Positions 4,603 through 32,136 of a DNA stretch of 64,000 bases are shown here, one piece after another. The position numbers and the translations under genes are program-made. How positions within the stretch are numbered: the stretch's first letter is position 1; each line of letters opens with the position of its first letter. Location: positions 1,178,001 to 1,242,000 of the forward strand of contig NZ_CP067112.1 in NCBI RefSeq assembly GCF_016615815.1. Reading direction: 5' to 3'. The stretch is from Luteimonas sp. MC1572. GTDB lineage: Bacteria > Pseudomonadota > Gammaproteobacteria > Xanthomonadales > Xanthomonadaceae. The notes beneath the pieces are model-generated. The model was not told the DNA's origin. It did not search any database and was given only the letters and a program-made list of their open reading frames with translations.

Positions 4603-5772
4603 ATGGCCCTGAATCCCTACGACCTCTACGACGTCCGCTCCCTGCTCAGCGATGAGGAGCGCGCCGTGCAGGACACGGTGGCGCGGTTCACCGACGAACG
4701 CGTGCTGCCGATCATCGGCGAGTGCTTCGACCAGGGCCGCTTTCCGAAGGAGCTCATCCCGGAGATCGCCGGGCTCGGCCTGCTGGGCGCGACGCTGCCC
4801 GCCGAATACGGCGGCTCGGAGCTCAACTACGTCAGCTACGGGCTGATCTGCCAGGAGCTGGAGCGCGGCGACAGCGGCATCCGCAGCTTCGCCAGCGTGC
4901 AGTCGTCGCTGTGCATGCATCCGATCTTCGCGTATGGCACCGAGGAGCAGAAGAAGCGCTGGCTGCCCGACATGGCCGCCGGCAAGGTGATCGGCTGCTT
5001 CGGCCTGACCGAGGCGCACGGCGGCTCCGACCCGGCCAACATGAAGACGCATGCCAAGAAGGACGGCGGCGACTGGATCATCAACGGCGCCAAGATGTGG
5101 ATCACGAACGGCAACATGGCCGACATCGCGATCGTCTGGGCGCAGACCGAAGACGGCATCCAGGGCTTCATCGTCGAGAAGGATTTCGCCGGCTTCAGTG
5201 CGCAGGAGATCAAGCACAAGATGAGCCTGCGCGCGTCGGTGACCAGCGGCCTGTTCTTCGACAACGTCCGCGTGCCGGAGGCCAACCGCCTGCCGAACGT
5301 GAAGGGCCTGAAGGGGCCGCTGGGCTGCCTGACCCAGGCGCGCTACGGCATCACCTGGGGTCCGATCGGCGCGGCGATCGCCTGCCTGGACGAGGCCTTG
5401 AACTACAGCAAGGAGCGCATCCTGTTCAACCGCCCGCTCGCGGCCACGCAGAGCGCGCAGCTGAAGATGGCCGACTGGTCGCGGCGCATCACCGGCGCGC
5501 AGCTGCTGAGCCTGCAGCTCGGTCGCCTGAAGGATGCCGGCAAGATGCAGCCCACCCAGGTGAGCGTGGCGAAGTGGAACAACTGCCGCATGGCCATCGA
5601 CATCGCGCGCGAAGCGCGTGACCTGCTCGGCGGCGCCGGCATCACCACCGAGCACTGCCCGATCCGCCACGCGCTGAACCTGGAATCGGTGATCACCTAC
5701 GAGGGCACCGAGACCGTGCACCAGCTGGTGGTGGGCCGCGAACTGACCGGCATCAACGCCTTCGCCGGCTGA
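4603..5772 (+). CDS. gcdH: glutaryl-CoA dehydrogenase
   Basis: A 389-residue acyl-CoA dehydrogenase matching the human and bacterial glutaryl-CoA dehydrogenase pattern nearly throughout. Recognisable blocks are IRSFASVQSSLCMHPI, GCFGLTEAHGGSDPANM (flavin contact), KMWITNG, LRASVTSG, GCLTQARYGITWG, ARDLLGGAGI and the catalytic glutamate in VITYEGTETVHQL. It oxidises and decarboxylates glutaryl-CoA to crotonyl-CoA in lysine and tryptophan breakdown, using FAD and passing electrons to ETF. The ATG at 4603 gives the expected N-terminus. No pathway partners are adjacent. Confidence 0.93.
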   Translation: MALNPYDLYDVRSLLSDEERAVQDTVARFTDERVLPIIGECFDQGRFPKELIPEIAGLGLLGATLPAEYGGSELNYVSYGLICQELERGDSGIRSFASVQSSLCMHPIFAYGTEEQKKRWLPDMAAGKVIGCFGLTEAHGGSDPANMKTHAKKDGGDWIINGAKMWITNGNMADIAIVWAQTEDGIQGFIVEKDFAGFSAQEIKHKMSLRASVTSGLFFDNVRVPEANRLPNVKGLKGPLGCLTQARYGITWGPIGAAIACLDEALNYSKERILFNRPLAATQSAQLKMADWSRRITGAQLLSLQLGRLKDAGKMQPTQVSVAKWNNCRMAIDIAREARDLLGGAGITTEHCPIRHALNLESVITYEGTETVHQLVVGRELTGINAFAG

Positions 5773-19412: not shown

Positions 19413-19814
19413 CCACGCGCTGATTTGACGCGGGGCGCGGGGTGCGGGGCACCCGGTACGCCGTACCTCGCGGTGCTTTGAGGAGCAAAGCCACAGCCCG
19501 CAAGCTCGCGCTTGGTCGCGGCACTGGCAGCCGGCGGAACGCCCCAAAGTGGCCGGGAGGCCTTCGCGGGGAAGTAAAGGAGGAGGCATCCGCCGCAGGC
19601 GGATCCGGGGGACATGAGCCGCGAAGGCCTCCCGGCCACCACAGGGCTCGCGGGGCTCCGGCCACCACGGGGCCCGCCAAGTCACCGCGCCCGGAACGGG
19701 GAAGGAACGCAGAGGAAAGGCGGGATCCCTGACAGCTCAGAAGGCTTGCAGGCGATCGGCACTCCCGCGTCCACACGGCACGCTGGGCCTCTTTTGCGGC
19801 CCGGGCAGTCGGCA
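19413..19814. other. 402-bp gene-free gap between lolD and comEC holding a repeat element
   Basis: There is no convincing coding sequence. The region holds several short inverted repeats: GGGTGC/GCACCC near 19440-19456, GGTAC/GTACC near 19457-19469, and GCTTTG/CAAAGC near 19476-19493. The large hairpin repeat copy A (19549-19639) follows. Part of the segment before copy A resembles the spacer between copies C and B near 32 kb. Open frames crossing the region are artefacts of the repeat, including an apparent 67-residue N-terminal extension of ComEC. Confidence 0.7.
19549..19639 (+). repeat. hairpin repeat family, copy A
   Basis: A 91-bp element. The outer arms are 21-nt perfect inverted repeats at 19549-19569 and 19619-19639 (left arm begins GTGGCCGGGAGG). 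The 48-nt core at 19571-19618 contains GGAGGAGGC and an inner 7-bp hairpin ATCCGCC / GGCGGAT with a GCA loop (19588-19604), then ends GGGGGACATGAG. The core differs from copies B and C by one substitution and one missing C. Confidence 0.85.

Positions 19815-31468: not shown

Positions 31469-31478
<10 letters not shown>
30831..31478 (+). CDS. pgsA: CDP-diacylglycerol-glycerol-3-phosphate 3-phosphatidyltransferase
   Basis: A 215-residue integral membrane enzyme with the CDP-alcohol phosphatidyltransferase motif: DWLDGWIARRYNQYSAFGAF continuing LDPVADK (DGxxARx8Gx3Dx3D). It makes phosphatidylglycerophosphate, the precursor of phosphatidylglycerol and cardiolipin. Its TAG stop lies inside the tRNA-Gly gene, so the last 10 bp of the reading frame overlap the tRNA. 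The tRNA promoter also lies inside its 3' end. Confidence 0.94.
31429..31456 (+). promoter_or_regulatory. sigma-70 promoter for tRNA-Gly inside the pgsA 3' end
   Basis: A perfect -35 TTGACA (31429-31434), a 16-bp spacer and a -10 TAAAAT (31451-31456). Transcription would begin around 31463, a few bases before the mature tRNA-Gly. This is the best sigma-70 match noticed in the window. Confidence 0.8.
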
Positions 31479-31544
<66 letters not shown>

Positions 31545-31552
31545 GTTTTGAG

Positions 31553-31578
31553 ACAAGACCCCGGCAACGGGGTCTTGT
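31553..31578 (+). terminator. hairpin between tRNA-Gly and tRNA-Cys
   Basis: An 11-bp perfect stem ACAAGACCCCG with its complement and a GCAA tetraloop, followed by the T/G-rich TGTGTC. It may be a leaky terminator or a processing signal. A second 6-bp hairpin with a GCAA loop lies at 31586-31601. Confidence 0.5.
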
Positions 31579-31621
31579 TGTGTCAGGCGCAGCAATGCGC
31601 CGCGTTGAACAGTTTTACGTG

Positions 31622-31695
31622 GGCCTCATGGCAGAGTGGTCATGCAGCGGACTGCAAATCCGCGTACGCCGGTTCGATTCCGACTGAGGCCTCCA
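31622..31695 (+). tRNA. tRNA-Cys (anticodon GCA)
   Basis: A 74-nt cloverleaf with encoded CCA. The acceptor arm GGCCTCA pairs with TGAGGCC, the anticodon stem-loop GGACTGCAAATCC reads GCA, and the T-loop is TTCGATT. The T-stem GCCGG/CCGAC has one C-A mismatch, slightly unusual for tRNA-Cys. It is the second gene of the conserved uvrC-pgsA-glyW-cysT order. Confidence 0.95.
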
Positions 31696-31763: not shown

Positions 31764-31798
31764 GGGTGCCGGGTGCCGGGTGCCGGGTGCCGGGTGCC
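31764..31798 (+). repeat. tandem array of GGGTGCC, five perfect units
   Basis: Five exact head-to-tail copies of the 7-mer GGGTGCC. The last unit forms the outer end of the left arm of hairpin repeat copy C. Confidence 0.95.
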
Positions 31799-31885
31799 AA
31801 GGGCCTTGAGGACTCATGTCCCCCGGATCCGCCTGGCGGCGGATGCCTCCTCCTTGACTTCGCCCTCAAGGCCCTTGGCACCCGG
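31790..31885 (-). repeat. hairpin repeat family, copy C (opposite orientation, different arms)
   Basis: The 49-nt core at 31813-31861 is the exact reverse complement of the copy B core. The arms at 31790-31811 and 31864-31885 are 22-nt perfect inverted repeats (inner end CCTTGAGG / CCTCAAGG). They share no clear sequence with the arms of copies A and B. Confidence 0.85.
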
Positions 31886-32004
31886 TGCGCCGCATTGCGC
31901 GGTGGCTCAAAGGCACACCCCGCGATCCTGGGCATTGCGCTCCGGCTTGGCCTTTGCTCTTCGCCTTCGCTCTCCGGTACCCACAGCCGCCACCCAGCCC
32001 CGAA

Positions 32005-32096
32005 GTGGCCGTGAGGCCTTCGCGGGGAAGTCAAGGAGGAGGCATCCGCCGCCAGGCGGATCCGGGGGACATGAGCCGCGAAGGCCTCACGGCCAC
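32005..32096 (+). repeat. hairpin repeat family, copy B
   Basis: A 92-bp element. The 21-nt perfect inverted arms are at 32005-32025 and 32076-32096 (left arm begins GTGGCCGTGAGG), and the 49-nt core is at 32027-32075. Compared with copy A, one arm position has changed from G to T and the partner in the other arm from C to A, so pairing is kept. Confidence 0.85.
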
Positions 32097-32136
32097 CACA
32101 GGGCACTCGGGGCGGCCACCACAGGGCACTCGGGGC
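32091..32136 (+). repeat. tandem duplication of a 23-bp unit
   Basis: Two perfect copies at 32091-32113 and 32114-32136, each starting GGCCACCACAGGGCACTCGG. The first overlaps the right arm of repeat copy B. A similar partial motif, GGCCACCACAGGGC, follows copy A at 19634. Confidence 0.9.

Follow-up and report, generated by a model that had tools for sequence, protein, structure and literature searches.

A repeated unit of two mirror-image hairpins in Luteimonas and Betaproteobacteria, with selection for folding of the core-bearing strand

Introduction

What keeps the arms of a repeated hairpin complementary while their sequence changes, and the loop that they enclose almost constant? The question is raised by a stretch of 64,000 nucleotides from Luteimonas sp. 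MC1572 (contig NZ_CP067112.1, positions 1,178,001 to 1,242,000; here called the window). In a sequence-only reading of this stretch, three hairpins had been picked out, A (19549-19639), C (31790-31885, inverted) and B (32005-32096), sharing a core of 48-49 nt with a nested 7-bp hairpin. These features are present in the sequence at those coordinates and in those orientations; the cores of B and C are indeed identical (49 identical nucleotides from 32027), and a compensatory G-to-T/C-to-A pair separates the arms of A and B. From this the reading had proposed selection for an RNA or cruciform structure, or else a mobile element that copies or builds its arms. The analysis reported here confirms the observation and supports part of the interpretation.

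Results and Discussion

The element and its copies

Copies B and C are a single element (31786-32105), made of two hairpins of opposite orientation and a linker (Table 1). Hairpin C has perfect 22-bp arms, the invariant core and an inner 7-bp hairpin, and hairpin B combines perfect 21-bp arms with the same 49-nt core. Among other hosts, 40 of 61 pairs have a gap of 37-48 nt between their hairpins, and the linker here is longer. Copy A seems, from its flanking sequence, to be part of another element whose C-type partner has collapsed to a short stem base. The covariance model finds three hairpins in the window, and folding of the three copies, on either strand, gave z-scores of -7.4 to -8.9 against shuffled sequences, with none of 200 shuffles reaching the same value.

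Table 1. Positions of the hairpins, linkers and remnant in the window.
Feature	Position	Strand	Remarks
Hairpin 1 (copy C)	31786..31887	(-)	core on minus strand; covariance model 74.7 bits
Linker, hairpin 1 to hairpin 2	31888..31997	(.)	110 nt
Hairpin 2 (copy B)	31998..32105	(+)	core on plus strand; covariance model 76.9 bits
Copy A, hairpin of second element	19542..19648	(+)	covariance model 80.2 bits
Linker of copy A's element	19455..19541	(.)	resembles linkers of complete elements, by eye
Probable collapsed remnant, C-type partner of copy A	19440..19454	(.)	GGGTGC/GCACCC stem base only, by eye

Several further details surround the B/C element. A 23-nt direct repeat (CGGCCACCACAGGGCACTCGGGG, twice) at 32090-32135 duplicates the outer foot of hairpin B. 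At 31764-31798 there are five successive GGGTGCC 7-mers. The final one lies within the arm of hairpin C, a pattern like that of an arm foot lengthened by slippage. Genes for tRNA-Gly and tRNA-Cys lie just upstream (31469-31695); in two relatives (G061 and G068) the next gene follows tRNA-Cys within ~80 nt, with no element between.

Further copies in the genome were sought in two ways. With copy B as a DNA query, 22 full-length (92 nt) matches were found in the 3.02 Mb genome, itself included, and the inverted partner matched ~155-225 nt away, start to start. In 29 fetched loci the covariance model scored 43 hairpins, consisting of 17 complete pairs and 9 lone hairpins, and whole-genome searches with the model likewise yielded 43. 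They are of two types, one with the arms of A and B and the other with those of C, and each recurs across the genome; copy C is thus not an odd copy. Its arms pair perfectly over 22 bp, as the sequence-only reading had it, but they are one of two genome-wide arm families and not a peculiarity of that copy. An element that makes new arms for each copy is likewise not supported, since the copies of the genome share these two families and arms change compensatorily at a fixed site (see below).

In a related genome (G071), at the site orthologous to the B/C element, the inner stem of the C-type hairpin is of the usual C type, but that of the window copy is of the B type; a second site (L008) shows the same difference. 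These comparisons suggest exchange between the two cores of an element, which would explain why the B and C cores are identical. Across 19 orthologous hairpins compared with G071, from which hairpins of differing register were left out, 18 pairs have changed: 7 are double Watson-Crick changes, 3 are one-sided losses of pairing, 3 went to G.U and 5 back to Watson-Crick. Some of the double changes are the G-C/T-A switch that also separates paralogues, and may therefore be conversions.

Covariation of the arms

Each hairpin, of ~106 nt, is built from variable arms, a near-invariant internal loop (GAAGTMAAGGAGGAGG / CCGGGGGACATGAG) and a variable inner stem. Where adjacent cores lay less than 600 nt apart in 120 loci, 61 of 64 were divergent, a single arrangement that corresponds to the pairing of a REP with an inverted REP. 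The data thus show a repeated, apparently non-coding chromosomal unit composed of two mirror-image hairpins with divergent cores and a linker.

The sequence-only reading had three copies from which to argue for structural selection. In an alignment of 45 hairpins that represent different arm families (one of the 46 chosen was omitted), 93.1% of the cells pair, and at 34 of 38 pairs both partners have changed; such two-sided changes number 501 cells, against 146 after shuffling. The covariation score is 0.780, compared with 0.182 for shuffled alignments and at most 0.141 for slid structures, the latter comparison being flattered because the structure was taken from members of the alignment, although the alignment was not fitted to it. 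Selection for structure is therefore upheld well beyond the three copies of the window. Of the two outcomes that the sequence-only reading had named as contrary to it, a scarcity of further copies and a lack of covariation outside its three, neither was found.

Which strand folds

A G.U mismatch on one strand is an A.C mismatch on the other, so the kinds of mismatch tolerated in the arms tell which strand is selected to fold. Hairpins were gathered by the core motif alone (298 found, 290 with scorable arms), and mismatches beyond the sixth aligned position were counted over 81 arm families. On the core strand there were 142 G.U, 21 A.C and 70 other mismatches (binomial p 3e-23), which shows that the core-bearing strand is under selection to fold. 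The symmetric cruciform that had been considered is not supported, given this strand-specific wobble tolerance. In the genus set, where related copies were kept, the bias is weak (91 G.U to 81 A.C), so that the strand claim rests on the wider set. Within the genus set, 68 of the 81 A.C cells fall at positions 21-26, the arm foot, while positions 6-20 give 75:2; these positional counts draw on a small number of arm families and are not independent.

The same asymmetry bears on a reading without selection, by which the arms would be kept complementary through template-switch correction of quasi-palindromes in replication. The perfect arms of the window copies would fit, as would the deletions ending in arms that are described below, which suggest that these palindromes provoke replication errors. 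Such correction should also erase the unpaired core, however, and should not leave wobble pairs mainly on one strand; the strand bias makes this explanation highly improbable.

Position relative to genes, and a possible role in RNA

Gene context in the 120 loci was determined with a home-made gene finder. In all, 89 elements have genes on both sides; those excluded were 34 at the edges of loci and 2 within predicted genes. The flanking genes are convergent for 30, tandem for 57 and divergent for 2, compared with 27, 131 and 85 among 243 background gaps of at least 60 nt. Divergent gaps are thus depleted (2/89 vs 85/243, p 1.4e-11) and convergent ones enriched (30/89 vs 27/243, p 5e-6), which shows that the element is positioned downstream of genes. 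The 26 elements of the window's own genome follow suit, with 14 convergent, 12 tandem and no divergent contexts. The median distance after stop codons is ~44 nt (tandem) to 66 nt (convergent), assuming 33-nt arms. In 14 of the 26 own-genome elements, a figure that stands without a background rate, a run of at least five T, of the kind that follows an intrinsic terminator, lies between the end of the flanking gene and the element.

These positions are what would be expected if the core hairpin were a structured RNA, carried by transcripts that read through from one side or the other. An RNA-binding protein or a ribosome would bind it, with effects on 3'-end stability, processing or termination. 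The strong preference for G.U and the covariation agree with this, and structured RNAs, too, typically have invariant internal loops between variable stems. The AAGGAGG in the core presumably resembles a Shine-Dalgarno sequence. In tandem contexts the sense hairpins have a small advantage over the antisense ones (95.1 vs 89.8 bits, 21/34, p 0.08), and core mismatches number 22 in sense and 32 in antisense. On the other hand, the 14 own-genome elements beyond a T-run argue against an RNA role, and lone hairpins in tandem contexts, of which 5 are sense and 14 antisense, do not have the sense orientation of a 3'-UTR structure. This antisense lean is predicted by no model in our analysis.

The wobble bias is, moreover, much the same whichever way the genes point: G.U to A.C is 30:2 for sense, 30:5 for antisense and 36:4 for convergent hairpins, and among hairpins found with the model, related copies not removed, the corresponding ratios are 77:3, 72:6 and 62:3. 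One antisense hairpin can be followed at a fixed site, between hpaE and hpaD in four Hydrogenophaga genomes whose flanks are 85-92% identical over 3.1 kb (the two genes were named in one genome, by NCBIfam above cut-off). The hairpin is antisense to both genes. Relative to the reference, 10 of 24 arm pairs are changed in one genome, 6 of these on both sides, whereas in the other two genomes 2 pairs differ on one side; no A.C cell occurs in the arms in any of the four. A further locus, L152, whose flanks were not compared over their length, likewise differs from the same reference on both sides at 6 of 24 pairs. The arms at the hpaE-hpaD site thus change compensatorily in place.

Since antisense hairpins keep the wobble bias and one of them compensates in place, a 3'-UTR role is less likely than recognition of folded single-stranded DNA. 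Rfam 15 also has little to offer for the RNA reading: at gathering scores the window holds two tRNAs only, and below them the matches are weak, the best over a hairpin being mir-4776 with 33.2 of 97 bits. We regard a structured RNA as possible, at a probability clearly short of even. RF02278, a toxic small RNA of Betaproteobacteria (PMC4603805) considered for its relation to the Shine-Dalgarno-like core, was absent from permissive Rfam searches.

Distribution

A pattern scan of reference genomes returned at least 120 stretches. The 80 with titles include Betaproteobacteria (Hydrogenophaga, Rhodoferax, Rubrivivax, Variovorax, Ideonella, Aquabacterium, Sulfurisoma and others) and Lysobacterales (Luteimonas, Pseudoxanthomonas and Lysobacter), the remainder being less precisely named Pseudomonadota; the core is thus present in other Lysobacterales and in Betaproteobacteria. 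In the genus of the window, 18 of 52 genomes are positive under stricter filters, with 2 to 75 hairpins each, and of eleven chosen genomes ten are positive, among them four Hydrogenophaga with 16-21 hairpins. The strict pattern is found in 2 of 369 genomes of a class sample and 2 of 398 of a phylum sample, both times the window's own genome and G087, a rarity that makes the family patchy.

Viral contigs gave no match to the exact pattern. Against plasmids, the window copy gave weak partial matches in 69 records, none covering 80%. With a Rubrivivax element as query, four plasmid records were found, namely three Variovorax replicons of 1.2-1.3 Mb and one 271-kb Burkholderia plasmid. The plasmid searches lose power because the arms vary. 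On the Burkholderia anthina plasmid NZ_CP071828.1 (L268 3957-4226) a hairpin of the family lies between genes for an alpha/beta hydrolase and a 2-hydroxymuconic semialdehyde dehydrogenase, and the Hydrogenophaga element likewise abuts a semialdehyde dehydrogenase gene, hpaE. Two loci have a distinct layout: G021:C13:109198-109628 holds three hairpins in direct tandem with a 162-nt period, unlike the usual inverted pairs, and in L072 complete elements at 70-343 and 5101-5359 enclose a segment of 4.7 kb.

Movement and the question of a mobiliser

An inverted pair of hairpins brings to mind a REP/REPIN-like element mobilised by a Y1 transposase (RAYT, TnpA-REP). REPs are 20-50 nt long, and their palindrome is preceded by a tetranucleotide, GTAG in most cases; in E. 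coli the stem has an irregular zone needed for activity, and the single-stranded REP is recognised while the iREP is not (all from PMC8266576). The paired arrangement of BIMEs and the recognition of one strand by E. coli TnpA-REP in that account would suit the present element, and a Y1 gene occurs in 17 of 24 chosen hosts. It is absent from the other 7. Y1_Tnp is also missing from G000, G013 and G030, the genomes of the genus with the most copies of the element (75, 52 and 43) and the window's genome among them, and from G070 (73% complete) and G071. Carriage of Y1 shows no association with that of the element (13 of the 18 positive vs 20 of the 34 negative genomes of the genus, p 0.38), and no hairpin lies within ~1.5 kb on either side of the 22 Y1 genes tested. 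In 81 non-redundant hairpins there is no consensus for a GTAG-type foot, no position exceeding 0.36 bit in the 20 nt outside either end. Mobilisation by Y1 is thus very unlikely.

The sequence-only reading had also proposed to look for a linked RAYT or other transposase, and none was found in the regions and genomes searched. By eye, the 60 most recurrent ORFs of the 120 loci contain no recurrent transposase; they look like translated copies of the repeat and like common proteins, ABC-type ATPases among them. Among 98 loci no minus-then-plus hairpin pair has a gene-sized gap, and the searches made found no binding protein, nuclease or autonomous version. Six sites were displayed against G071: three have deletions ending in the arms and three have unrelated sequence, with no clean junction. 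As these sites gave no target-site duplication or clean empty site, movement is read from copy number. A lone C-type hairpin at genome position 2698573 adjoins one surviving B-type arm, which is another arm-ended loss.

Relation to known systems

The element is REP/BIME-like in its paired hairpins, yet it fails the defining tests of REPs. In common with REP/iREP pairs (BIMEs and REPINs of Escherichia and Pseudomonas), as these are described in the texts consulted, it is intergenic and multi-copy and consists of inverted hairpin pairs with a linker. In contrast to the REPs of those texts, it has ~106 nt per hairpin instead of 20-50 nt and its invariant part at the apex; no conserved foot is seen, and several rich hosts are without a Y1 transposase.

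MITEs, too, are short, apparently non-coding, repeated and of inverted symmetry, but here neither a parent transposon nor a target duplication or a shared terminal repeat was identified, and the two ends are complete hairpins whose arms differ. Integron attC sites are sequence-variable, structure-conserved hairpins that are recognised as one folded DNA strand, with conserved boxes at their base, and they come with an integrase and cassettes. The present element may be compared with them in its variable sequence and conserved hairpin structure and, on the reading proposed below, in recognition of one folded DNA strand. The MRSC-65-2 motif, according to PMC11109978, has a long covarying stem, often occurs in dozens of copies per genome and is undecided between RNA and DNA. 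The present element shares these three traits, whereas in the published description that motif, from diverse phyla, has one long stem only and a conserved UYCCGG repeat, so that the two may differ.

As in the sequence-only reading, no known repeat or RNA class matched among those tested. Exact core strings retrieved no literature match concerning bacterial repeats, by title, and the element is not named in the titles and abstract openings searched. Term look-ups in PMC3733652, PMC11109978, PMC8632094, PMC2267715 and PMC8266576 turned up no description of it, and the searched terms do not occur in PMC6006769.

A proposed mechanism

Given the selection for folding of the core strand, we put at about an even chance that this strand, folded as single DNA, is recognised at the invariant loop by a putative host factor. 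Recognition as single-stranded DNA is favoured over a role in RNA mainly because gene orientation does not matter; the count of G.T against A.C is uncalibrated on a family known to be recognised as single-stranded DNA, and thus does not prove DNA over RNA. The core strand would be met, folded, as single-stranded DNA, for example in replication or repair, or while the element is being copied, and a host-encoded factor would land at the invariant loop. The arms and the inner stem might need only to keep the loop open with the correct geometry, and their sequence would then drift while pairing is kept. With the two hairpins inverted, each DNA strand would have one functional hairpin, whichever way the neighbours are transcribed. 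The unit would spread within a genome as a whole, could persist at fixed sites between species, and would be lost through deletions that end in the arms. The putative factor may act in copying, strand processing or chromosome organisation.

Conclusions

More tentatively, at somewhat below even probability, we suggest that Betaproteobacteria and Lysobacterales have in common a recognition system that we did not find described in the literature searched, with an invariant internal loop at the apex that freely evolving stems keep open, a host factor that reads it on a folded single DNA strand, and a fixed mirror-image pair serving both strands. The strong covariation and the near-unchanging loop, on both strands and with no known partner, make the 106-nt hairpin a bait for a conserved binding factor, for which the complementary strand would be a ready control. 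The element may equally serve as a test case in which wobble asymmetry is used to separate DNA-level from RNA-level structural selection.
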